A stretch of 64,000 nt of DNA, from the NCBI GenBank assembly GCA_947624785.1, contig CANQLV010000013.1:17791-81790 (forward strand), written 5' to 3'. Positions 50,736-63,740 of the stretch are shown piece after piece. Within the stretch, counting starts at the first letter, position 1. Each line of letters begins with the position of its first letter. Under the pieces are notes generated by a model that did no database searches, was not told the DNA's origin, and saw only the letters and a program-made list of their open reading frames with translations. The stretch comes from Akkermansia muciniphila (lineage in GTDB: Bacteria; Verrucomicrobiota; Verrucomicrobiia; Verrucomicrobiales; Akkermansiaceae). The position numbers and the translations under genes are program-made.

Positions 50736-50823
50736 GGAGAGATGGCAGAGCGGTTTAATGCAGCGGTCTTGAAAACCGCCGTGGGGCAACCCACCGTGGG
50801 TTCGAATCCCACTCTCTCCGCCA
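50736..50823 (+). tRNA. tRNA-Ser (anticodon UGA)
   Basis: Acceptor stem GGAGAGA/TCTCTCC closes the cloverleaf, with G and an encoded CCA at the 3' end. The anticodon stem GCGGT/ACCGC encloses CTTGAAA, anticodon TGA. A long variable arm (CCGTGGGGCAACCCACCG) identifies a serine tRNA, and GGTTCGAATCC is the T arm. Total 88 nt. It marks the edge between the B12 region and the glycosyltransferase cluster and could be an integration site. Confidence 0.96.
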
Positions 50824-51059: not shown

Positions 51060-53969
51060 TTACCTATCTTCCATGATCCACGCGTTCAGATCGATATATT
51101 TCGGTGGGGAGGATTTCCCTTTCAAGTCGTCAAAACAGCAATCCGCCACGCGCTTGAATATTTCCGGATATTGCTGAATGAAGTTTTTCGCACTCTTGCA
51201 TTCATTTTTTTCCCCCCAGCCGCAGGGGGGCGAGAAATTGTAAATGGTCCGGAGAGAATGAAGGAGATTGTCTTCCATTTGTTCCTGTTTACTGTTGCTT
51301 ATATGAAAAGCGTACGCACAAGTACCTATTCCTTGCGCCCGATTTTCCTTAAGCAGCAACGACGGATCGATCCGGAGACGTTTTTCTTGAGGACAGTTTT
51401 CCTCTGTGCACCGGCTTTCCCGGCCGACGTTCCACGGCATTCCGAGAATTCCGGTCCGGACGGAAGGATAGCGTTTTTTAATGCCTGAAGCGAGAAGAAG
51501 GCAGGCAACGGCTTCTTCCACCCTCCCTGCCAGGAGGATGCGCTTTGCGTGCGGAGTGGCGGCGAGAAATTCAAGGATATCCCGTCTCATGTTGTCCAAA
51601 TGGTCTTCCAGGTTCCAGGAAGAATAACGGATAAGAACAACGGGACGCCCCGTTGAATGCAGCCACGGTTTTTCCGGGGAGCCGCAGAGAGCAATGACAT
51701 ATTCATCCGCAATACAGGAGTCCGGCGCCATGAATGAATAGGAAGAGAACCAGTACTTCCCGTCCTCTCTGTGAAGAAAGGTTTCCTTTCCCCAGTAATC
51801 CCAGCCTATGACGAGTTTTTTGTCCGTGTATTCCAGGATTTCGCCTCCATCGTTGCAATTTAAACGCCTTCCCCTGTTTCCCGTGATGCACAAGCCATCC
51901 GTCCAGTCCTGCTGGCGCAAATGAATAATGGAGGAGGCACGGGAAGGAGATTGGACGGAGGCGGTTTCTTCCTCCTTCCGTAAACGGTAGGCGCCTTCTT
52001 CCATTTTCGTAAAGGTTTCCACGCCCCATTTATCCCATTTCAATGTGATTTCCACTCCGGTCAGAGACAGCACGTCGGCTTCATCCCGAGGTCCGTCCAA
52101 GCGAATGGCCCGTCCATTGCTGATTTTCACGCATCCTTTCCAGTCAGAATGGATGATGTCCACGAGGTGTTCATCATTCCCGGCATCCGTAGAAACACCG
52201 TTCTGCATTTTCCGGAATTCCTCGGAAACAGTACCTCCCCGCATGATGGAAGCATTGCTTTTCTGCATAATCAGATGGCTGTGAATTCCCCGCTTTTTCA
52301 GATAGGGCGCTATGTCAGCACAGCCATGCTCCAGCATGACGGTCTGGAACAGCTGGTCTTCCGCAAAGCCAAATTGATAGAATCCCGTTTGCCTTAAACA
52401 ACGGTACATGGCTTCCTTCATAGCCGCGCAGTCGGTTTCCCACGCCAGCAGATCCTCCATGACCCGCCGCGACATGACTTGAGCCGGCCCCAGGGCCAGC
52501 AGGAAGGATTTTTCCAGATAAGGGTATCCCTCATGCCGTTTCAGCCACAGGCCCTCCCCACAGTGGCAGCTTGAATAACCATCGGGCAACAGGGCATGAA
52601 AATCGGCAATATGCCGGAAGTAGTCCGGGTCATAGAAGTCATCATCGTCAATCTTGGCAAAAAGGTCATAGGATGAAATATCCAGCCCACGGACGGTATC
52701 CAAGAAGTTGGTAAGCTGGTTTCTGTTAGGGTAAAGGCGCAGCGTCACTCTTCCGGCGTCAATGAACGGCTGCACATGGGGAAGCAGAACCCTGCGGACC
52801 GTTTCAGCCGAAATTCCCTTAACTGCTGCAAATACATGCAGATGGGGATAGCTCTGGTTCATCATGCAGAGAATTTGGCGAAGGAGGTCTTCCACCCTCT
52901 TATATGATGCAATGCATGCCGCCATATTGAATGGCCGTCCAAGCGGCCTTTTCTCAGAAGGAGAAACAGTTTCCGAAACCGTCCATGGTTTCCCATCGTC
53001 ATACCGCGGCATCAAAATTTCCTCATGAAGCAACGGTTCATTTTTTCCCTCCACGGAGGCAGGCTGCCGCCCGGCATTTCCCTCCCTGAAAATTTTCTTT
53101 AAAAACAAGGCAGCTTCATCCAGCAGCCCGTCCACGCCGATCTGCCCCTGGTCAAACAAGGGGCCGCTGAAGTAGGAGAGGTATTCGTCAACATTCCTGT
53201 CCAGGTGCTCCACATACCGGACCAGTTCCGCATGATTGCGAAAATCACGGGCGTTGATGAACCGCCCGGGGTTAAATTCGCGGCAGGCATCCGGCGCTCC
53301 CCAGTAAACGGGCAGGCTTCCGGCAGCAAAGGCATCCGTCAGTTTTTGCGTTACGTAACCGGGGGCAGCATGGTTTTCAAACGCTATGGTGAATTTGTAC
53401 CGGGAGCAGAATTCGACTTTGTCTTTGACGACGATGCCCGTGTTGTTCAGAAGCCGGCCGGAACTGTCTACGTATTTGTATTGGGAAAGAGTTTCCAAAA
53501 AATGGACGGCTTCCCGGAATTCTCCTCCGGAATAGACGAAATTACAGAATTTTTCATGCCGGTTAACAATATCCCCTGGTACGGAGGAGTATTGTTCAAT
53601 GTGGCCCGTCCTGCGGATATAGCCGGTATTTAACCACGCAGGAAAACGAAAATGACGCCCCCCGGAAAGAGTTCCATCTCTCAGGCTTGTCAGGGAATAG
53701 GAGCCTTTCCTCCAGCGCGGCAAAACAGGTTCTTCCGTATAAAACAGACGAGGACCTTTAAAGGAATGCGCGGCATTTCCAAAGATTGAATAAATCAGCA
53801 AGTCGGCGCTGGCCAGGTCATCCACAAAAACAGCGCCCAAACGTTCTTTCAAGATCAGGCCCAGAATGTGGTTTTGCGGTTTAAATCCGGATTCAAAGTC
53901 GGTAAAAGCTATGCGAGCGGGAGAGTCCATCCGGGGGGGGGTAAGATAAAAGTTTTTCCGAGAAAACAC
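51060..53969 (-). CDS. GT10 fucosyltransferase fused to GT2 and two KWDxWG modules
   Basis: 969 residues in four parts. 1-310: GT10-like (Lewis-type alpha-1,3/4-fucosyltransferase), with the donor-binding signature 'IAFENHAAPGYVTQKLTDAF' and 'SLPVYWGAPDACREF'. 350-600: GT2-like, 'CIASYKRVEDLLRQILCMMN' and acidic motif 'LFAKIDDDDFYDPDYF'; this part is a close paralogue of that in the 58048 gene. 601-665 and 680-745: two copies of a module ending 'ITLKWDKWGVETF' / 'LVIGWDYWGKETF'. 750-960: a domain also ending the 54842 protein, not recognised. The likely start is GTG 53969 (AGGAAA upstream), so a C9 tract is translated at codons 10-13; a second start, ATG 53930, lies after it. It is last in a six-gene operon. 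Confidence 0.85.
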   Translation of the reverse strand: MFSRKNFYLTPPRMDSPARIAFTDFESGFKPQNHILGLILKERLGAVFVDDLASADLLIYSIFGNAAHSFKGPRLFYTEEPVLPRWRKGSYSLTSLRDGTLSGGRHFRFPAWLNTGYIRRTGHIEQYSSVPGDIVNRHEKFCNFVYSGGEFREAVHFLETLSQYKYVDSSGRLLNNTGIVVKDKVEFCSRYKFTIAFENHAAPGYVTQKLTDAFAAGSLPVYWGAPDACREFNPGRFINARDFRNHAELVRYVEHLDRNVDEYLSYFSGPLFDQGQIGVDGLLDEAALFLKKIFREGNAGRQPASVEGKNEPLLHEEILMPRYDDGKPWTVSETVSPSEKRPLGRPFNMAACIASYKRVEDLLRQILCMMNQSYPHLHVFAAVKGISAETVRRVLLPHVQPFIDAGRVTLRLYPNRNQLTNFLDTVRGLDISSYDLFAKIDDDDFYDPDYFRHIADFHALLPDGYSSCHCGEGLWLKRHEGYPYLEKSFLLALGPAQVMSRRVMEDLLAWETDCAAMKEAMYRCLRQTGFYQFGFAEDQLFQTVMLEHGCADIAPYLKKRGIHSHLIMQKSNASIMRGGTVSEEFRKMQNGVSTDAGNDEHLVDIIHSDWKGCVKISNGRAIRLDGPRDEADVLSLTGVEITLKWDKWGVETFTKMEEGAYRLRKEEETASVQSPSRASSIIHLRQQDWTDGLCITGNRGRRLNCNDGGEILEYTDKKLVIGWDYWGKETFLHREDGKYWFSSYSFMAPDSCIADEYVIALCGSPEKPWLHSTGRPVVLIRYSSWNLEDHLDNMRRDILEFLAATPHAKRILLAGRVEEAVACLLLASGIKKRYPSVRTGILGMPWNVGRESRCTEENCPQEKRLRIDPSLLLKENRAQGIGTCAYAFHISNSKQEQMEDNLLHSLRTIYNFSPPCGWGEKNECKSAKNFIQQYPEIFKRVADCCFDDLKGKSSPPKYIDLNAWIMEDR
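53933..53941 (-). repeat. Poly-C(9) tract near start of GT10 fusion gene
   Basis: Nine consecutive C on the coding strand, reading ACC CCC CCC CGG just before ATG 53930. It is the longest C/G homopolymer I saw in the window. Gain or loss of one base would put the upstream GTG start out of frame, as in phase-variable genes. Confidence 0.85.
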
Positions 53970-54001: not shown

Positions 54002-54808
54002 CTAGTCCAGGAGGAGATGCGCATACGGGCTTTTTGCCTCCTGCAATAACGGCAGAATCCGGGAGAGAAAACACTCCCGCAGAGAGGGCCTTTGAGAAAG
54101 AGGGATGACTTCATCGTCATAAAATTCCCGGATGACATTCTTGTATTTAGCCGTTTTCATGAAGTGCATCCAACAGGCACCAGGATAAGGGGTCACCTGA
54201 GGATGAGCGGTTATATCCACTTCGTAAGGCGCCGCAATTCCAAAGCGGGGCAAGTTGTTCATGCCGCAGATGAGGGAGTCTCCGCCCCCATTTACAGGGT
54301 GAGGACCATAAATCATCAACCTTTGCTGATGAACCAGGGTATTGTACCCCCGGATGGAGACGCAATCCTCCGGACCGGATATCATTTGAAAGGCTGCTTC
54401 CAGTTCCCGGGTAAAGTAAATTTGATCGGCGTCTATTTTGGAAACGCAAAACAGCTGCCCTTCATAAAGACGGCGAATGAATTCCATGCCGAAATTCAAG
54501 TAGGTATCAATCCTGTTTTCCCGGGGAAGGCTCCTCAAGTCATTCACGGAATGAGGGGGAACGATATGATGCGGATAATGAAGAAAGCTGACCCGGCATT
54601 GGCAAGCGTTGAAAAGGTGATGTTCCCATTCCTTGACCAGGTCAATGCTGCGGTCATCCATATCCGCCCAGAGCACCACAACGTGGTCCAGAACGGGAGC
54701 TACGCTCAACAGACATGGGATAACGGCGTTTTCTTCATTAAGAACACGGAGAAAACCTATCCGTTTCATGCTTTCGGGCATTTTTGTTTTTTGTGATTCG
54801 CATTCCAT
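54002..54808 (-). CDS. Putative GT2-like glycosyltransferase
   Basis: A 268-residue protein with the plan of a short glycosyltransferase: 'KRIGFLRVLNEENAVIPCLL', a DxD-type 'ADMDDRSIDLVKEWE', and 'LFCVSKIDADQIYFTREL' (DAD). The 'HPQVTPYPGACWMHFMK' segment is likely in the acceptor half. I cannot name a CAZy family with confidence. Three Met codons (1, 10, 15) are possible starts; Met15 (MKRIGF, 54766) follows CCCGAAAGC. It lies 33 bp after the 54842 gene and 32 bp before the GT10-GT2 gene in the same operon. Confidence 0.7.
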   Translation of the reverse strand: MECESQKTKMPESMKRIGFLRVLNEENAVIPCLLSVAPVLDHVVVLWADMDDRSIDLVKEWEHHLFNACQCRVSFLHYPHHIVPPHSVNDLRSLPRENRIDTYLNFGMEFIRRLYEGQLFCVSKIDADQIYFTRELEAAFQMISGPEDCVSIRGYNTLVHQQRLMIYGPHPVNGGGDSLICGMNNLPRFGIAAPYEVDITAHPQVTPYPGACWMHFMKTAKYKNVIREFYDDEVIPLSQRPSLRECFLSRILPLLQEAKSPYAHLLLD

Positions 54809-54841: not shown

Positions 54842-57800
54842 CTAGGCGGATATACGCAGATTTCTCCTCACCTCATGATTCCCGCTTTCCGTTTTCATCA
54901 TCCGGAACATTTCCTCAATCCAGGATTGAACCAATGCCGGCTTTTCCTTGACCAGATGTACGATTTTTCCGTGAACAACAGTATAATGTTCCTTGCTGCC
55001 AGCCGGGTGGGCATATGTTTTCAGAAGGTAAGGAGCCAATCTGTTCGTTGCTTCTTCATCAAGAGTCCAATGTTGATTGGTACTGTAAAAGGCAAACAAA
55101 CAAAGTCCGGAGGATTCCGGCTGCCGGAGCAGTTGGAGAGGATCTCCATAACGCTCCAAAAGATTGTTGAACGGTCTTTTTTCCCTTATCTGTTCATGAG
55201 ATGGGGAAACTTTTATTCCCCGGTATACAGGAGACTTCCCACTAAAATCCACCGTCCATGGGCACCCCCACACTCCAATATGAAGATGGGGAAAGTCCTT
55301 TTTCAATCGCTGCGCCAGAATAAGGGCAGCAAACGCATCCTTGCAAATACCCATCAGCAGGACGGATTGAAGCCGGGGCATTTTTCGTACCCCTTTTTCA
55401 ATATCACGATACATGCGTTCCAGCAGCAGCAATCCCTCCCATTGATGATACCTCATGCCGATAAAAGGACGGCTGGAATGCCGGAACACGGAGTTATTAC
55501 CGTCATACGGGTTGATGAGCAATTCCACCGCGTATTTGTTCACTTCATTGATAGTGGAAGAATAATGATAGTCAAGGTACCGATATTTTCCCTCTTCCAT
55601 CTTCAGAAACTCTTCAGTTCCCCAGTTATCCCATTTAAGAACGAGCTTGCTTTCATCATGTTGAAGTATGGTTGCGTGGTCATTGCGGTGAAGCCTTCGC
55701 CCCCGTTTTTCAGTCATCTGAAATTGGTCCGTCCACTGAGGATGGCTGATGAGAATGGTGTCCACGGGAACCATGTCCGGTGAGGAGCCATTATCCTGGG
55801 AAGAAACCGGAAGCGCCGGGGTGGAGTAATGAAATTCACCGGCGGCATCTTCCAGAATGGGAATGACTCTTCCGCTGTCAATAAGGGACTGCATGTAGGC
55901 ATTTTCCGTTGGCGCATGATGCTTTGAAGAACCCGCGGCCCTCAGGTTCATATCCGTATCTCCCAGATAGTAAAGCTGGGCTTCAGGGAATAAATAGTCC
56001 GCCAGACAAAGCGCTTTGCTCAACGTGGTAAAATTGCCCGTGCTGCGGTGAACTTCTCCCGGCATGAATTTCCAGTTTTCCAGCCTTTCCCTGCAGGCAA
56101 ATTCATTGGAATAGCCCAATTCTTCATTGTTGAAGTAAATTTCCGGGACTCCGCGTAAAATTTCCATATGCCTTTCCTTAGGAGAAAAAGCCAGGTATCC
56201 GGGGAAGCATGAAACAAGAACAATATCCGTCCTTTTTCCCGCCAGGCCGGAATTCAAATTATCCATTTTGCTGATTCTCATTACTTTATCGCAAGAGTCG
56301 ACAAACGAGGAATAGTTGCGTTTCAAATCACGTTTATTTGAGACGATGCAAATACGTTTTTTATGCCCTTCTGAAGCCAGAAAACATTGACAGTCTTTAA
56401 ATTCACCCAACCGTGACAAGACTTTCCATTCCTCTTCCGTATCAATTTGCAGACAGCAGGGAAAATCGTTGGGATAGGGGCACGAGCCGTCATCAAACAT
56501 CGTACCTGATTCCAGAAATTTTTTCCGGGTAACAACATTAATATTTCCGTCAAAAAAATAGAAAAATTTCTTGGCGTCCTGTTCCCGATGCGCCAGATGA
56601 AAATGTCCCTCCAGATGACCAATCATTTTGGTTTTGCGGGCTGTGTAGGCGGATTGAATGATCCCTTTTTCCATGTCTTCCGCCATTTGGCGCAACAGTC
56701 CCCGACGGCGGAAGGGAGAAGTCGGCTGAAGTACGGCGAACATGTCACAGGAGAAACGGGCCAATACCTGGCGTACGCAATTTTCCATTCGACGGTCGTC
56801 CACCGTCTCCCGGAAGCACTGGATGCCTTCCCGACGGCAGCGTTCCATCACTTCTTCACTGTCCGTACTGACAACCGGAACAAATCCTTCCTGGAGGGCA
56901 TAGGAAACGGAATATAGGAACAGGGGCCTTCCATTCAACAGGCGCCTGTTTTTATGCGGACAGCGCTCCGAATGTTTTTTAGCCGGAATAATGGCCAGCT
57001 TGCGGATGAATTGGGAAGCCGTGTCCTTCCCTTCCGGACAAAACACGGGGAACGGAGTTTCCTTTATCGATTGGGGCAGCAGAAGTTCCGCCTTTCCCGT
57101 CCATTGTTTTCCGTCATCATGACGGGACATGACGGGATAGCCGTGATGCAGACGGCAAGCCGCCGTACGCGGCCTGCCAGTCCGGCATATATTCCCGCCG
57201 CATGAAATCATGGAAAAGAATTCTGTCAAACGGTTCACATATTCTCCGATGTCCGGCTGGCCCGGGACAAAAAGGGGACCGTCCATATAACTGAGGTAAA
57301 GGTCTTCATCCTGATCAAGACGAATCACATATTCAGCCACGGCCTCCGGGGTGGAAAAATCCGCGGCATCGACGAACCGGGATGGATTGGCCTCCATTCC
57401 TGCATCGGGGGCTCCCCAATAAATGGGAAGGGAAAGAGCGGCAAGAGAATCAAATAGTTTTTCAGTTACGTAACCGGCAGCCGGATAGTTTTCAAAGGCA
57501 ATCGTGAATTTGCAGGAAGAGCAGAAAGCTATTTTATCCCGAACGCAGGAGCCCATGTTGTTCATGACCATCCCGCCGCAATCTACATGCTTGTACCGGG
57601 AAAGCAGGCGCAGGAAATGAATTCTTTCCGGAGCATTCCCATTGGAATATATAAAGTTGCAAAACCGGGTATGCCTGGACAGGAGGGACTTTCTATCTTT
57701 GGAGTATTGCTCTACTTTTCCCGTTCTCCTGACAGGGCCATTGTTCATCCAGCAGGGCATCCTCAAATGGCATTCGGGATAGGGAATATCCTCCCTCATG

Positions 57801-58069
57801 AATGAAATGGCATAATCGCACTCATCCCAACGCGGTTTGACGGATTCCCCTGTATAAAAAACTCGAATCCCTTTAAAGTTCTGATGCTTGTCTCCAAAAA
57901 CGGAGTAGATTAAAAAATCCGCCTGATCCTGGTCATCCACAACGGACATGCCCAGTCTTTCCGTCAAAACCGCGGACAGAATATTATCATGCGGATCGAA
58001 CCCCGGCCAGAAGTCCGCAAAAGCGACACGTTTGGCGTGCCGGGAATTTATACCTGCTGTCTCAACCAT
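54842..58069 (-). CDS. GT10-like, CMP-sialate synthetase-like and sialyltransferase-like fusion
   Basis: 1075 residues. 1-310: GT10-like, with 'IAFENYPAAGYVTEKLFDSL' and 'SLPIYWGAPDAGME'. About 355-570: acylneuraminate cytidylyltransferase (NeuA)-like, 'LAIIPAKKHSERCPHKNRRL' and 'AVLQPTSPFRRRGLLRQM'. About 570-740: a domain with 'ICIVSNKRDLKRNYSSFVDS' and 'YYLGDTDMNLRA', which resembles the start of sialyltransferase-type sequences (iD....Vi Ri); this is a weak call. 769-835: a KWDxWG module ('LVLKWDNWGTEEFLKMEEGK'). 845-1060: the unrecognised C-terminal domain shared with the 51060 gene. It overlaps the upstream gene by 22 bp. In NeuA the first motif is usually IPAR.GSKR; here it is IPAKKHSER, so activity is uncertain. 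Confidence 0.8.
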   Translation of the reverse strand: MVETAGINSRHAKRVAFADFWPGFDPHDNILSAVLTERLGMSVVDDQDQADFLIYSVFGDKHQNFKGIRVFYTGESVKPRWDECDYAISFMREDIPYPECHLRMPCWMNNGPVRRTGKVEQYSKDRKSLLSRHTRFCNFIYSNGNAPERIHFLRLLSRYKHVDCGGMVMNNMGSCVRDKIAFCSSCKFTIAFENYPAAGYVTEKLFDSLAALSLPIYWGAPDAGMEANPSRFVDAADFSTPEAVAEYVIRLDQDEDLYLSYMDGPLFVPGQPDIGEYVNRLTEFFSMISCGGNICRTGRPRTAACRLHHGYPVMSRHDDGKQWTGKAELLLPQSIKETPFPVFCPEGKDTASQFIRKLAIIPAKKHSERCPHKNRRLLNGRPLFLYSVSYALQEGFVPVVSTDSEEVMERCRREGIQCFRETVDDRRMENCVRQVLARFSCDMFAVLQPTSPFRRRGLLRQMAEDMEKGIIQSAYTARKTKMIGHLEGHFHLAHREQDAKKFFYFFDGNINVVTRKKFLESGTMFDDGSCPYPNDFPCCLQIDTEEEWKVLSRLGEFKDCQCFLASEGHKKRICIVSNKRDLKRNYSSFVDSCDKVMRISKMDNLNSGLAGKRTDIVLVSCFPGYLAFSPKERHMEILRGVPEIYFNNEELGYSNEFACRERLENWKFMPGEVHRSTGNFTTLSKALCLADYLFPEAQLYYLGDTDMNLRAAGSSKHHAPTENAYMQSLIDSGRVIPILEDAAGEFHYSTPALPVSSQDNGSSPDMVPVDTILISHPQWTDQFQMTEKRGRRLHRNDHATILQHDESKLVLKWDNWGTEEFLKMEEGKYRYLDYHYSSTINEVNKYAVELLINPYDGNNSVFRHSSRPFIGMRYHQWEGLLLLERMYRDIEKGVRKMPRLQSVLLMGICKDAFAALILAQRLKKDFPHLHIGVWGCPWTVDFSGKSPVYRGIKVSPSHEQIREKRPFNNLLERYGDPLQLLRQPESSGLCLFAFYSTNQHWTLDEEATNRLAPYLLKTYAHPAGSKEHYTVVHGKIVHLVKEKPALVQSWIEEMFRMMKTESGNHEVRRNLRISA

Positions 58070-60408
58070 GCGTGACCTCCGTGTTTTTGAAGAGATTTAT
58101 CCTTTACGATCATTTTTACTTTCGGTTTGATCGCCATGAGATTTTTTTGATTAAAGTACAATGTTTCAGGGAATAAATATTCCGGAGACAGAACAAGGGG
58201 ATGCCGGCCAATCACGTATTTATTGAGGTGGCTTTCATCGTGCCAAACGGCAATGACGCCGTCCTCAAGATCCCGCCTGACGGCATCCGCCAACTCCCGG
58301 CACATGCGGAGATAGTCTTCAGCCCTTCCCCCGTTGAAGCCTCCGGCGACATAATATTCTCCTTCGGATTGGAGCACCCGTGCCCGGGACATTCCATTTT
58401 TTTCATAGGGGTAAGTGGAACGGGCGCATTGGTAGTATCCCGGATGAAGCGCCACCATGAGCCCCTGCCGGTCCGTCGGGAAAATTTCCTGACCGACAGG
58501 CGCTACGGGAAGCAAAGTTCCATTCATGAAATAAATGTAGTCGTATTGCCGCAATTCCTCCCGAACAGTTAAAAAAGTCTCAAACCTTCTCAAGGTTTCC
58601 ATGGGCCATGGATAAAACGGCTTGGAGACAAGAGTCACGTCATCGCCGGTTTCCACTTCCGGATGATCCGTGAACAGAAAATAATGCACGTCATGCCCTG
58701 TCAGGAAATATTGTTTGGAGGCCGCATAAAACTCCTCCCAGAACGTCATATAACGCCCCGTGGCTATAAACAGGACAGCCACTTTTTTCCGGGGAGAAGA
58801 AGGCTCCTCCTGCCTGCCGCCGCTTAATAAATAGAAGGTTCCATCCTCCATCTTTTTAAACGACTCCACGCCCCAGCAATCCCACTTAAGAGTTATTTTC
58901 TCATCAGTGACGGAGAGGACGTCCGCTTCGTCATCCCGTTCAAAACGGCGAGCCCTGTCCCCAAAGACACGGACAATATCATGCCATTGCGGATGATGCA
59001 CTTCCATGAGACGCTCCTCATTAACCTGATTCGTAGAAATGTTCCAGTTTCTGCCCCTGAAATCTCCCGGAACCAGTCCTCCCCGCATCACGGAAGCATT
59101 GCCGGTCTGAATTGCCAGATGCATGGGCAGGGCCATTTCCTGTACATACCGGGTGCGGTTGCTGCTCCCGGTATCCAGCATCATCATATGCATGAAGTTG
59201 TCTTCCGTAAATCCATACCCGGCATGACGGAGCCTGGGCGAGATTTGAGAGATCATGTGAGGATTGGTCTCACAAATTATTAATTTCTCCAGCACATCCC
59301 GACTCAATACCAAGGTGGGGCCAAAGCAGCCGAAAAATCCGTTTCCTGAGAAGGGATACCCTCCACGCACGCTTAGATATTCGCCCGGCCCGCAATAAAA
59401 GCTGCTGAATTCCGGCGGAAGATGCAGATGGAATTTATTGACTGACTTGAAATAATCCCTTCCGTACAAATCATCATCGTCAATTTTGGCGAAGAGATCG
59501 TAATCGGAAACATTCAAATCCCTTACCGTGTCCAAGAAATTGGATAGCTGGTTCTTGTTGGGGAAAAGCCGCATCGTCAAACGGCCTTCGTGGATATAAT
59601 GTTCAAAGAGAGGGAGCACCGTTCTGCGGTACGTTCCTTCCGGGATCCCCTTGACAGCTGCGAACACATGGAGATTCGGATAGCTCTGATCCATCATGCA
59701 CCAAATCTGCCTCTGCAAATCCGTCAGCCGCTTATAGGATGAGAGACAAACAGCAATCTTGCAATCGGGCCTCTGCTTAGTCCGTTCGTGCTGGTAAAAC
59801 AAATTGTGGCGGGCCACACGGATCTTGAGGTCTCCCTGGCTGTTGGCAGCCTCCAGGGCAATATCAGTCGGCAACCGGTAATCGGCAAAAACCCGGGCAA
59901 CCCTGGAGCGTCGGGAAGCAGGGATGACGAGAGCATGCGTTCCCCATACGTAGGAGGTATTGGCATCCGTTTCTCCCGTTTTAAAATCTTCAAACAAGAT
60001 TTCATCAGTCTCACCCGGAGCCCCTTGCGGAGACCACACCGCATGATGGAACAGCCGGAAAATATCCGTCTCCGGATGCTCCTTCATTTCCTCCCTGAGA
60101 GCCGTTTCCAAACGGGAAGAAGCCACCATCGGCACGGCATCGCTTTCTCCGAAAATAAGCAGGTCATTTCCGGCATAGCTCCTGTCCTCCAGCAGACGTA
60201 TGAAAGATGCCCGCAAGGAACGGACGTGCGAACGTTCCGCAGACGCCGGAGACCTTCCCAGGTAGGAGGCGCTTTCCTCTTCCCGTGTATCCCTAAGGGC
60301 GGAAAGATCCGCGGTAGAGGGATAGAGCTCCAGCTCATAACCCATCCGGTGCAATTCCGAAGCCCCCTCCGACTTTTCCCCAGGCGACACAATCAAAACG
60401 CATTTCAT
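58048..60408 (-). CDS. GT2 / GT6 (ABO-type) fusion glycosyltransferase
   Basis: 786 residues. 1-205: a domain reminiscent of GT25 ('LLIFGESDAVPMVASSRLET'), moderate only. 215-470: GT2-like, 'VCLSSYKRLTDLQRQIWCMM' and 'LFAKIDDDDLYGRDYF'. 475-545: KWDxWG module ('ITLKWDCWGVESFKKMEDGT'). 555-786: GT6, the family of the human ABO enzymes. 'VALHPGYYQCARSTYPYEKN', 'GGFNGGRAEDYLRMC' and 'IAVWHDESHLNKYVIGRHPL' followed by 'VLSPEYLFPE' match closely. Where ABO enzymes have the metal-binding DVD, it reads FMNGTLL, so NGT; other bacterial GT6 proteins carry NxN and act without metal. The start has AAGAGGT. It overlaps the next gene by 22 bp and follows the GT31/GT11 gene by 12 bp. Confidence 0.87.
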   Translation of the reverse strand: MKCVLIVSPGEKSEGASELHRMGYELELYPSTADLSALRDTREEESASYLGRSPASAERSHVRSLRASFIRLLEDRSYAGNDLLIFGESDAVPMVASSRLETALREEMKEHPETDIFRLFHHAVWSPQGAPGETDEILFEDFKTGETDANTSYVWGTHALVIPASRRSRVARVFADYRLPTDIALEAANSQGDLKIRVARHNLFYQHERTKQRPDCKIAVCLSSYKRLTDLQRQIWCMMDQSYPNLHVFAAVKGIPEGTYRRTVLPLFEHYIHEGRLTMRLFPNKNQLSNFLDTVRDLNVSDYDLFAKIDDDDLYGRDYFKSVNKFHLHLPPEFSSFYCGPGEYLSVRGGYPFSGNGFFGCFGPTLVLSRDVLEKLIICETNPHMISQISPRLRHAGYGFTEDNFMHMMMLDTGSSNRTRYVQEMALPMHLAIQTGNASVMRGGLVPGDFRGRNWNISTNQVNEERLMEVHHPQWHDIVRVFGDRARRFERDDEADVLSVTDEKITLKWDCWGVESFKKMEDGTFYLLSGGRQEEPSSPRKKVAVLFIATGRYMTFWEEFYAASKQYFLTGHDVHYFLFTDHPEVETGDDVTLVSKPFYPWPMETLRRFETFLTVREELRQYDYIYFMNGTLLPVAPVGQEIFPTDRQGLMVALHPGYYQCARSTYPYEKNGMSRARVLQSEGEYYVAGGFNGGRAEDYLRMCRELADAVRRDLEDGVIAVWHDESHLNKYVIGRHPLVLSPEYLFPETLYFNQKNLMAIKPKVKMIVKDKSLQKHGGHAWLRQQV

Positions 60409-60420
60409 AAAATGTACCTC

Positions 60421-62676
60421 TTAAAGTTTAATCCATTGCGGGCAGAAAATGTCCTGCTCGTCCTCAATCTTTCCGGCAAACCACTGTTTTTGAATAAAAA
60501 CCCTCTGCTGGCCTCCAAGCCATGCCCCCCACCAGGAAAAGGAGGAACAGGAAAGGACGAGTTCCTGCATGGACGTCAATTCCCGGAGGGCGTCCAGCGT
60601 CTGATGCTCATCCATGACTATTTCAAAACGCCTTGCTTCCGGAACGCCCTCCATCAATTTCCGGGCCAATTCCGGAGAATCGGAAAAGACGGCCAGCTTA
60701 CTGATGTTGCCGGAAAGCCTCCGTAAAGCTTCATTAAGAAATGGAACATCCGGCGTACGGTACATATCCGTACGGTCAAGATAGTCCCCCATCCTTATAT
60801 GGACGCCGGCCACGCCCTCCTGGACGGGAGCAAGAAGAGGAGCAAACAGGGAACGGATTTCTTCCGCAACATCCTTGAAATACCGCTCACTCTGGAAATA
60901 CCCTCTCAGGGCGCCGTACCGAACCGTTTCAGGAATGGGATGGTACGAAAATCCGGGCTCCCGGTATGTCACGGGATCGTTATATCCGCCGTCCGGACAC
61001 AAGGCGCAAGCCTCGCCCAGATAAGTCATCAGCTCCCAGGTCTCGGAACTGTATCTCCAGGGAATACGGCATCCCACACCCAGCCGGAGAGCATGCGCAT
61101 AGGCAGCAGCTATCTGGAACAGATGGTTGCATGTACGCGAGCCGGGCATAAACTGCGTCGTGACGTAACCGGGAGATGCCGGAACAGAAGCGGGACGCAT
61201 GGATAAAAATTTACCGGTAACAGTCTTCTGCGGTTTCCGGGCATCCAGGCAGACCGTACCCAGCAGGTCAAAAGGATGTTCATCCCTGTCAGATCGCCTT
61301 TCAAGACACTGAAGGTGCAAATGGCGGGAATTACCCGGAGCGTGCTGGGAAACCTGGAACCCCAGCTCTTCCAAAACATAACTCAGGAAATCGGCAGACC
61401 ACAGGGATTGTTGCTTGTAGACTTCCATAAATGCACATAAATCATTCTCCGGAGTGTGATTTCCCTTCCCCTGCTCCTTCATGTATTGCCTGAACGCGGG
61501 CGTCATCACCCCGCGCATCAGGCGCACGTCCCGGAAACTTAATCGTAAGATTCCTCCGGGTTTTAGAGCACGGAAGGCTTCCGTGAAAAATCGGCAGGCC
61601 TCTGCAGGCGTTACTGTTCCAATGACGTGTTCCAGATAAAAAGCGTCTACGGAATCGCCCTTCCACGGGAGCGGCCTGGTAATATCATAATTGGGAGCGT
61701 CCAGATTCAACCAGCCATTCAATCTCCGGGTGCCGCACCCCAAATGGATATACAGGAGAGGAGATTGATCCATGATTTCCACGTTGCCGGAAGAAAGGCG
61801 GCGTTCAGCCCATAACCGGGCCAGGGACGGCATGTCCGGCCGCTGGAATATCTCCGTTTCAGACCCGATATACCGTTCTCCCTCCAAAAGGAGCTGCTCC
61901 ATAGGCCACATCTGCCATTTCAGCTTCAGTTCACCTTTGGAGCCAATACTCCACCAGCCGTAGCAGGAAGTATCCATTCTCCTGAACGCCCCGTTGGAAT
62001 AAAACAGCATTTCCCCTTTCCAGTGAAGATGAACAACATCACACACGGCGGAGGGAATTTTGTAATTGAACGAATACAGGGCCTGCATGATGTCGGGAGA
62101 ACACCAGTGGGCCGTTACCATGTCGTTATCCTGTTCCGGGTAATAAACATTGGACATGTAAAGGCGTTTCGTGGATTTCAAGCGTCCTCCGAGCCGGCCT
62201 GCCAGTTCACCCACGATCACATCCTCTGCCCCGCATTCCGCAAAACCCGGCGCATTCACCAGCTTTTCCACCATGCTGCGCTTCAGCAGGTAGCCCGCCC
62301 CTCCGCTCGGTGAATTGCGAAGCGCAACCATCGCATCCCCAATCAGATCATAATCTTCATCTATCAAGGAGGTCAACCGGCTCAATTCCAAATACGTATC
62401 GTCATCACATTTAAAGAGCCATTCAAATTCGTAATTCTCCAGCGCGTAACGAAAGAAGGATTTCACTTTTGCGGGGAGCTCGTTGTAGCCATCGGCCGCG
62501 TCAAGCCCCACCGTATCTTCTTCTTCCCCCTCCGGAGCCCGGTTTCCTCCCACAAAGAACATGCATTCAACGTTCTGCGCGGGATGGTTCAGCCACGTAG
62601 ACCTTACCGCCTTACGTTTATCTCCCGTTCCATGGCATGAACAAATGCCTACGACAATGTTTGTTTTCTTTTTCAT
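60421..62676 (-). CDS. GT31 / methyltransferase / GT11 fusion
   Basis: 751 residues from MKKKTNIVVG; GGAGGA lies 6 bp before this ATG and decides it against the tracked start five codons upstream. 1-200: GT31-like beta-1,3-glycosyltransferase ('KRKAVRSTWLNH', 'EWLFKCDDDTYLELSRL', 'AECGAEDVIVGELAG'). 210-275: a weaker KWDxWG module ('LKLKWQMWPMEQLL'). 305-470: SAM-dependent methyltransferase-like ('YIHLGCGTRRLNGWLNLD'). 490-751: GT11 alpha-1,2-fucosyltransferase ('GVHIRMGDYLDRTDM', 'LSCSSFSWWGAWLGGQQRVF'). In GT11 the donor motif is normally HxRRGD; here the second Arg is Met, and the GGxGNQ start is replaced by 'GSRTCNHLFQ'. Second gene of the operon. Confidence 0.85.
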   Translation of the reverse strand: MKKKTNIVVGICSCHGTGDKRKAVRSTWLNHPAQNVECMFFVGGNRAPEGEEEDTVGLDAADGYNELPAKVKSFFRYALENYEFEWLFKCDDDTYLELSRLTSLIDEDYDLIGDAMVALRNSPSGGAGYLLKRSMVEKLVNAPGFAECGAEDVIVGELAGRLGGRLKSTKRLYMSNVYYPEQDNDMVTAHWCSPDIMQALYSFNYKIPSAVCDVVHLHWKGEMLFYSNGAFRRMDTSCYGWWSIGSKGELKLKWQMWPMEQLLLEGERYIGSETEIFQRPDMPSLARLWAERRLSSGNVEIMDQSPLLYIHLGCGTRRLNGWLNLDAPNYDITRPLPWKGDSVDAFYLEHVIGTVTPAEACRFFTEAFRALKPGGILRLSFRDVRLMRGVMTPAFRQYMKEQGKGNHTPENDLCAFMEVYKQQSLWSADFLSYVLEELGFQVSQHAPGNSRHLHLQCLERRSDRDEHPFDLLGTVCLDARKPQKTVTGKFLSMRPASVPASPGYVTTQFMPGSRTCNHLFQIAAAYAHALRLGVGCRIPWRYSSETWELMTYLGEACALCPDGGYNDPVTYREPGFSYHPIPETVRYGALRGYFQSERYFKDVAEEIRSLFAPLLAPVQEGVAGVHIRMGDYLDRTDMYRTPDVPFLNEALRRLSGNISKLAVFSDSPELARKLMEGVPEARRFEIVMDEHQTLDALRELTSMQELVLSCSSFSWWGAWLGGQQRVFIQKQWFAGKIEDEQDIFCPQWIKL

Positions 62677-62693
62677 GGTTTTTCCTCCCATTT

Positions 62694-63740
62694 CTAAGCC
62701 GGCAGTTTTTCCACCGCGTCAAAGACTTCCTCCCAGCTGGCTACAGACGCTTCCAGCCCTCCAAGCTCCAGTCCACGTTCCCGCGCCGCATGGGCCATGT
62801 CGGATCTAAGGTTGGGTTCGTAAGCCATCTTGCTGGCGTAGTAAATGAAATCCCGTTCATGGTCGCACAGCCAGCCGGTTTTTCCGTGTTCCACCATCTG
62901 CCTCCAACCTCCACGGTTGTCCACCACAAGCACGCTTCCGCTGGCCATGGATTCAAACCCGACGCGCGGCCAGTTTTCCGTCGTGTCCGTCGGCTGGAGC
63001 ACGATTTGGCAGTGCTTGTAAAAGTCCTGCTGGCTCACTTCCCTCTGGTCGCGGGCCGTACGTATCCAACCGTAGGGCTCTCCGATTTTTTCCCGGCTCC
63101 TCTGGTCAAAGCCCAGAAACAGGCCCCTCTTAAAAAGGGGCGAGACGAAGTATTCGTAGATGTGGAGCGTGTTGGCCGCAAATTTGTCCGCGTCCTGGCG
63201 CGAGATGCGCCCGCAGCCGAAGTATTCCTGCGTCCTCTCCTCAATGAAAGGGAAGGATTCGTTGTAGAAGTAAGGCTTGAACGTCATGAAAACAATGGAG
63301 GGGTCGTCGTTGCAGCGCTTGAGCAGGGGCATGTTCTTCTGCCTGACTTCCTCATTCTGGTAAAGAAACATGGCAATGAGCCCCTGCTTCATGAGTTCCT
63401 TTTCCTTGTTGAAAAGCCAGGTCATGCAGTTGACAAAAATGGTGCGTTTGGTGCGCTGGCGAATGGCTGGCATGTTTTCCAGGAATTCTCCGTTGCAGAA
63501 TCCGATGATGGCATCCCCTTCCTGCAGGACTGTCCAGTCGTTGGGAGCGTGGATATGAACGCCCAGACGGATCATTTCCAAATAAAGGGCTTCATTTTCA
63601 AATCCGCCGTTGGTGGGGATGATATGGACGTCAATACCCATGTGGAGCCAGACCAGAATCTGGTGGTGGAGTTCGGTTCCCGCTCCCCCGTAGAGGCTGG
63701 GGAACCCGTTGACATAGATCTTTTTCAATGTGGTGCTCAT
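62694..63740 (-). CDS. GT4-like glycosyltransferase, first gene of operon
   Basis: A 348-residue GT-B type transferase. N-terminal 'IYVNGFPSLYGGAGTELHHQ' is the glycine-rich acceptor loop; 'FYKHCQIVLQPTDTTENWPR' and 'GFESMASGSVLVVDNRGGWR' form the GT4 donor site (E..ASG). Its stop lies 17 bp before the ATG of the GT31 fusion. It lacks the fused modules of its neighbours. As the first gene it should set expression of the operon. Confidence 0.9.
   Translation of the reverse strand: MSTTLKKIYVNGFPSLYGGAGTELHHQILVWLHMGIDVHIIPTNGGFENEALYLEMIRLGVHIHAPNDWTVLQEGDAIIGFCNGEFLENMPAIRQRTKRTIFVNCMTWLFNKEKELMKQGLIAMFLYQNEEVRQKNMPLLKRCNDDPSIVFMTFKPYFYNESFPFIEERTQEYFGCGRISRQDADKFAANTLHIYEYFVSPLFKRGLFLGFDQRSREKIGEPYGWIRTARDQREVSQQDFYKHCQIVLQPTDTTENWPRVGFESMASGSVLVVDNRGGWRQMVEHGKTGWLCDHERDFIYYASKMAYEPNLRSDMAHAARERGLELGGLEASVASWEEVFDAVEKLPA

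Follow-up and report, generated by a model that had tools for sequence, protein, structure and literature searches.

The closest described relatives of the protein studied here are BoGT6a of Bacteroides ovatus (4AYJ, 4CJ8; PMC3961637), a single-domain GT6 enzyme of 246 aa, and the human ABO transferases GTA and GTB, which are Golgi enzymes with a DVD metal site. In the BoGT6a-UDP-GalNAc complex no metal was seen; Asn95 makes several contacts with the substrate and Ala96 a contact by its main-chain N alone, whereas Asn97 makes none (PMC3961637). The presence of two Asn in place of two Asp was argued to relieve charge repulsion (PMC3961637). The GT6 family and its fold are known, and what is new here is the gene cluster, the architecture of the fused chain and a refined motif. 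A literature search found no paper describing GT6 in Akkermansia.

The fused protein is encoded in the window (the whole stretch of 64,000 nt that was analyzed; Table 1). Its GT6 domain resembles BoGT6a in fold (Z 35, 37% identity) and keeps the first Asn, the AGG triplet, the catalytic Glu, Lys231, His239 and Arg243, but has NGT instead of NAN, Glu instead of Asn69 and Pro instead of Thr134, and is joined to three other domains. It is also homologous to human GTA and GTB (E about 4e-33), with the catalytic Glu303 and the histidine of HPG present, whereas the DVD metal site is replaced by NGT and a Golgi enzyme by a bacterial multi-domain chain. The stand-alone Akkermansia GT6 proteins (L003, L004, L010, L060, L201 and L202) are likewise of the metal-independent type, with the first Asn kept and N, D or T as the second, but they are unfused and form a separate clade. 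For the N-terminal domain, the comparison is with COLGALT1 of GT25 (9EVK), which is alike in GT-A fold, but EDD is replaced by GESD and there is no GT25 match by Pfam sequence profile.

GT6 membership and domain architecture

The sequence-only reading had described an open reading frame at 58048-60408 ending in a GT6 domain, and the coordinates, the PF03414 profile, the BoGT6a match and the fold all agree with it; the motifs that it listed, HPGYY, AVWHDESHLNKY and LSPEYL, were all found in the frame. PF03414 matched residues 543-760 with 118.6 bits (cut-off 25, E = 3.2e-34), and a profile search of the 3.08 Mb genome returned only one GT6 copy (120.2 bits). The best PDB match was BoGT6a (4ayj, residues 542-784, E = 2.8e-53), followed by the human ABO transferases (about 4e-33). 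The predicted GT6 fold aligned to 4cj8 (BoGT6a) over 237 residues (Z 35.0, rmsd 1.2). The score for NCBIfam NF041524 (Gltr_6) was 238.3 bits, just under the cut-off of 250. The window is Akkermansia DNA; its nearest named record was A. muciniphila strain CSUN-56, with a GT6 part 89% identical.

The mean pLDDT of the full 786-aa chain was 84.5 (AlphaFold2 model). The fold search list of the whole chain was swamped by GT6, and residues 1-535 were therefore modelled and searched apart. The predicted fold of residues 1-209 matched residues 338-561 of COLGALT1 (9EVK; Z 14.6, rmsd 3.5, 185 aligned) and also the beta-1,4-GalT 8xkd (Z 13.9), and 'FGESDAVP' occupies the place of the GT25 EDD motif. No Pfam match was found for this domain at E ≤ 5, GT25 PF01755 included (HMMER filters may lose weak matches), and a PDB sequence search gave none. 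A common GT-A fold, as predicted here, does not by itself prove GT25 membership. Near homologues of the N-terminal domain were confined to Akkermansia within the sample searched. For the middle domain, the predicted fold of residues 215-440 matched GT2-type enzymes (SpsA, Z 15.8, rmsd 3.2), and the alignment contained both the DxD (IDDDD) and the xED (TEDN) of GT2 type, but a search with the domain alone gave no Pfam Glycos_transf_2 match at E ≤ 5 (weak matches may again be lost to the HMMER filters). Because sequence profiles detect neither domain, the labels GT25-like and GT2-like rest on fold and motifs. The earlier description of a fusion to GT2 was right about a GT2-like domain but incomplete, in that a GT25-like domain and a beta module are also there.

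Proteins of approximately 550 aa consisting of the GT25-like/GT2-like/module block alone were found at other Akkermansia loci (42-48% identity in the first domain). With this block alone and GT6 alone elsewhere in Akkermansia, the fused chain appears to have been put together from pre-existing parts.

Table 1. Features of the fused glycosyltransferase and its gene cluster (positions in the window)
Feature	Position	Strand	Remarks
Fused glycosyltransferase, GT25-like + GT2-like + beta module + GT6	58048..60408	(-)	786 aa, ATG start
GT25-like GT-A domain, residues 1-212	59773..60408	(-)	predicted fold; without Pfam match
GT2-like GT-A domain, residues 213-440	59089..59772	(-)	fold; IDDDD and TEDN (xED) motifs
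All-beta module MOD, residues 465-527	58828..59016 (also delimited as 58813-59031)	(-)	seven predicted strands; HPxW...LKWDxWGxExF
GT6 domain, residues 541-786	58051..58788	(-)	PF03414 profile, BoGT6a match, fold
NGT triad, N629-G630-T631	58516..58524	(-)	aligned to N95-A96-N97 (BoGT6a) and DVD (human GTA)
AGG donor-selectivity triplet, residues 688-690	58339..58347	(-)	identical to BoGT6a 155-157 (GalNAc enzyme)
Catalytic Glu725 (WHDES)	58234..58236	(-)	E192 of BoGT6a, E303 of human GTA
Lys771, diphosphate / leaving group	58096..58098	(-)	Lys231 of BoGT6a; role from PMC3961637
GT4-like glycosyltransferase, first cluster gene	62694..63740	(-)	
Upstream gene: GT31 (beta-1,3-Gal type) + MOD + methyltransferase-like + GT11 (alpha-1,2-fucosyltransferase type)	60421..62691	(-)	
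Downstream gene: GT10 fucosyltransferase + PseF/CMP-sugar synthetase-like + unnamed domain + MOD + unnamed C-terminal domain	54842..58069	(-)	
CgtA-like transferase, last cluster gene	54002..54808	(-)	weak PF06306
GT10 + GT2-like + two MODs + unnamed domain	51060..53969	(-)	near tRNA-Ser
Other MOD copies	55556-55777, 51960-52187, 51720-51956, 61846-62049		
Unnamed C-terminal domain, two occurrences	54842-55555, 51063-51719		about 200 aa; without Pfam match
tRNA-Ser	50736-50823		adjoins the glycan cluster end

The NGT triad and the active site

The alignment confirmed that N-G-T stands in place of the ABO DVD, and NGT was identical in each of the seven Akkermansia genomes in which the fusion was detected. 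The assignment to the bacterial metal-independent enzymes, also made in the sequence-only reading, agrees with the retention of N629 and with the tree, in which the fusion GT6 and BoGT6a shared a clade of 40 rows away from the DxD forms (support 96/89). That reading had further pointed to the loss of the second Asn; a striking mechanistic meaning of this loss is not supported: Asn97 lacks a substrate contact (PMC3961637) and has been replaced in separate lineages. The triads of stand-alone Akkermansia GT6 were NAN, NAD, NSD, NGD and NST. When the triad columns were left out of the tree, the position of the second Asn still required at least three changes between N and non-N. All members of the metal-independent clade that were examined had kept the first Asn. 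The third triad position of the clade was N, D or T, with T631 in the Akkermansia fusion. Given this variation within the clade and the lack of a substrate contact at the site in BoGT6a, the second Asn is an unsound defining feature, and the conserved signature of bacterial metal-independent GT6 is, as judged from the sequences compared, N-x-x and not NxN. The published signature is thereby narrowed to one residue, which is a testable claim. The existence of natural N-x-D enzymes makes the charge-repulsion argument of PMC3961637 worth re-testing.

Of the BoGT6a sites examined, those retained in the fusion were T10, Y13, W66, T70, R73, N95, H122, AGG 155-157, W189, H190, D191, E192, K231, H239 and R243, and those altered were N69 (to E, Glu604), A96 (to G), N97 (to T) and T134 (to P, Pro667). 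Sites 69 and 134 were highly variable across bacterial GT6, with Pro common at 134, and the donor triplets of the bacterial family included AGG, CGG, MGA and QGC. Within the fusion clade, the catalytic Glu was invariant, as were almost all of the remaining key contacts. The dN/dS of the GT6 part was 0.07-0.18, like that of the other domains (simple Nei-Gojobori; dS saturated in some pairs). The fused GT6 enzyme is probably active.

Gene cluster, beta module and distribution

The downstream gene overlaps the fused gene by 22 bases. The five-gene order (GT4; GT31-GT11; fused GT6 protein; GT10-CMP-synthetase; CgtA-like) was syntenic in three other Akkermansia sequences (L148, L150 and L151). L149 and L018 (CSUN-56 lineage) had the cluster with a downstream gene that lacked its GT10 half (755 aa vs. 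1075 aa), and the L019 sequence starts within the GT31-GT11 gene. Sialyltransferase identity of the third domain of 54842-58069 was unsupported by PDB and Pfam sequence searches. One unnamed C-terminal domain is common to two genes of the region (Table 1). Genes for tRNA-Ser are common sites for genomic islands, and one adjoins the end of this cluster.

Characterized GT11 enzymes form Fuc-alpha-1,2-Gal, and characterized GT31 enzymes form beta-1,3-Gal linkages. Among 48 other GT6 loci, 26 had a GT11-like gene within 6 kb, and in two of them GT6 and GT11 shared one frame; this is a lower bound from a single BLAST query, and the count is of GT6 loci alone. Single frames matched by both GT6 and GT11, natural fusions of the two, were L033:2008-3738 and L043:1223-2803 (Kuenenia MAG; Magasanikbacteria). 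Because GT11 and GT31 are in the cluster and GT11 is so often adjacent, GT6 most likely follows GT11, and the GT2-like step would not directly precede GT6. The synthesis of A-, H- and Lewis-type epitopes appears to be within the capacity of the cluster.

MOD, of approximately 60 aa and with the motifs HPxW and LKWDxWGxExF, occurs five times in the cluster. Up to eight copies were found per genome, in 3 of the 151 Verrucomicrobiota genera sampled, with nearly all matches in Akkermansia, and most MOD-bearing proteins examined had GT domains. There was no Pfam match to MOD and no fold match of its own in the whole-chain or residues 1-535 lists, which is not in itself a sign of a new fold. Our guess is that MOD docks the growing glycan or spaces the active sites. 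It is an undescribed recurrent part, useful for the study of fused transferases.

GT6 scored above cut-off in 14 of 76 Akkermansia species genomes, and in seven of these it was in the fused form, with a frame length of about 790 aa. The fusion GT6 clade and the GT6 of gut Alphaproteobacteria nested together (support 98/95), apart from stand-alone Akkermansia GT6, and this placement in different clades suggests separate acquisition. The alphaproteobacterial relative L021 also has NGT; a single NGT origin for L021 and the Akkermansia fusions gave p-AU 0.29, which is compatible with one or two origins. Phage origin of the fusion was rejected: when phages were searched with the whole protein by tblastn, the GT6 part alone was matched (≤43% identity), a full-chain phage scan found nothing, and all viral GT6 domains retrieved had a DxD triad. 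A plasmid collection contained two distant GT6 only. Long fusions with diverged GT6, the triads KPQ, RPQ or DAV and the catalytic Glu kept were found in other genera of the same family (L012, L013, L014 and L015), and in a sister genus (L002) a GT8-GT6 fusion with DAD represents an independent fused GT6 of metal-type motif. Two stand-alone Akkermansia proteins (L201 and L202) have a hydrophobic C-terminal tail, a possible membrane anchor.

Proposed function and its alternatives

We consider it rather likely that the GT6 domain at the C-terminus is functional, as a retaining and metal-independent alpha-1,3-GalNAc transferase of blood-group-A type that completes an A/Lewis-like surface glycan. 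UDP-GalNAc would be held by Asn629 together with main-chain groups, Lys771, His779 and Arg783, which would stand in for a metal ion, and Thr631 would be neutral. GT31 would add Gal, GT11 would add alpha-1,2-Fuc to give an H-type structure and GT6 would cap it with GalNAc; GT10 could add Lewis-type Fuc, the product being a host-like surface glycan. The GT25-like/GT2-like/module N-terminus would be an older Akkermansia unit that GT6 joined later, and this GT6, a relative of the gut alphaproteobacterial one, was probably gained by horizontal transfer.

An active metal-independent GT6 might instead use another acceptor or donor (for example UDP-Gal, or a non-fucosylated or bacterial sugar), with a product that is not group A. 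We regard this as possible but unlikely. Pro667 for the acceptor-side Thr134 and Glu604 for Asn69 could change acceptor or nucleotide binding, so that the acceptor may differ from the H structure, and the donor triplet varies in the bacterial family; Pro at site 134, however, is common among bacterial GT6, AGG, His122 and Arg73 are the same as in the GalNAc transferase BoGT6a, and GT11 and GT31 are encoded in the adjoining gene. That gene also bears on the suggestion of the sequence-only reading that one chain performs two sequential transfers, with the GT2-like and GT6 domains acting consecutively on one acceptor. The two domains do share a chain, and IDDDD and xED are retained in the GT2-like domain, but the fucosylated Gal for GT6 would come from the GT11 of the upstream polypeptide, on which GT11 (and GT31) would make the H-type acceptor. 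The two steps also seem separable, because the N-terminal/GT2-like/module unit occurs alone in some Akkermansia and GT6 alone in others, and we consider consecutive action improbable.

It is similarly hard to credit that the GT6 domain is dead or decaying, a glycan-binding or structural appendage in which NGT marks the loss. The triad does deviate from both DxD and NxN, and KPQ, RPQ and DAV in the more distant fusions of the family may be such decay. Within the fusion clade, however, NGT is fixed, dN/dS is about 0.1, the catalytic Glu and almost all of the other key contacts are invariant, and stand-alone enzymes show equal freedom at the second site. A pseudo-enzyme reading of NGT was rejected as the leading idea on the grounds of purifying selection and of nearly all other contacts being kept; fixed, under purifying selection and with nearly all other UDP-GalNAc contacts retained, NGT is to all appearances not decay.

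Returning to the capping GalNAc transferase, the broader proposal is a tentative one and, as a whole, rather doubtful: some Akkermansia may display A/Lewis-like antigens by means of fused-transferase chains, with MOD docking the glycan or arranging the active sites and with GT6 metal independence resting on a single Asn (N-x-x). Published A. muciniphila LOS data mention fucose and hexosamines and do not mention a blood-group epitope; the strain concerned may lack the cluster. Akkermansia degrade mucin and themselves consume ABH glycans. An epitope-building cluster in this prominent gut genus would bear on natural anti-A antibodies and immune tolerance, and cluster-bearing strains would contrast with strains that only degrade blood-group-type glycans.
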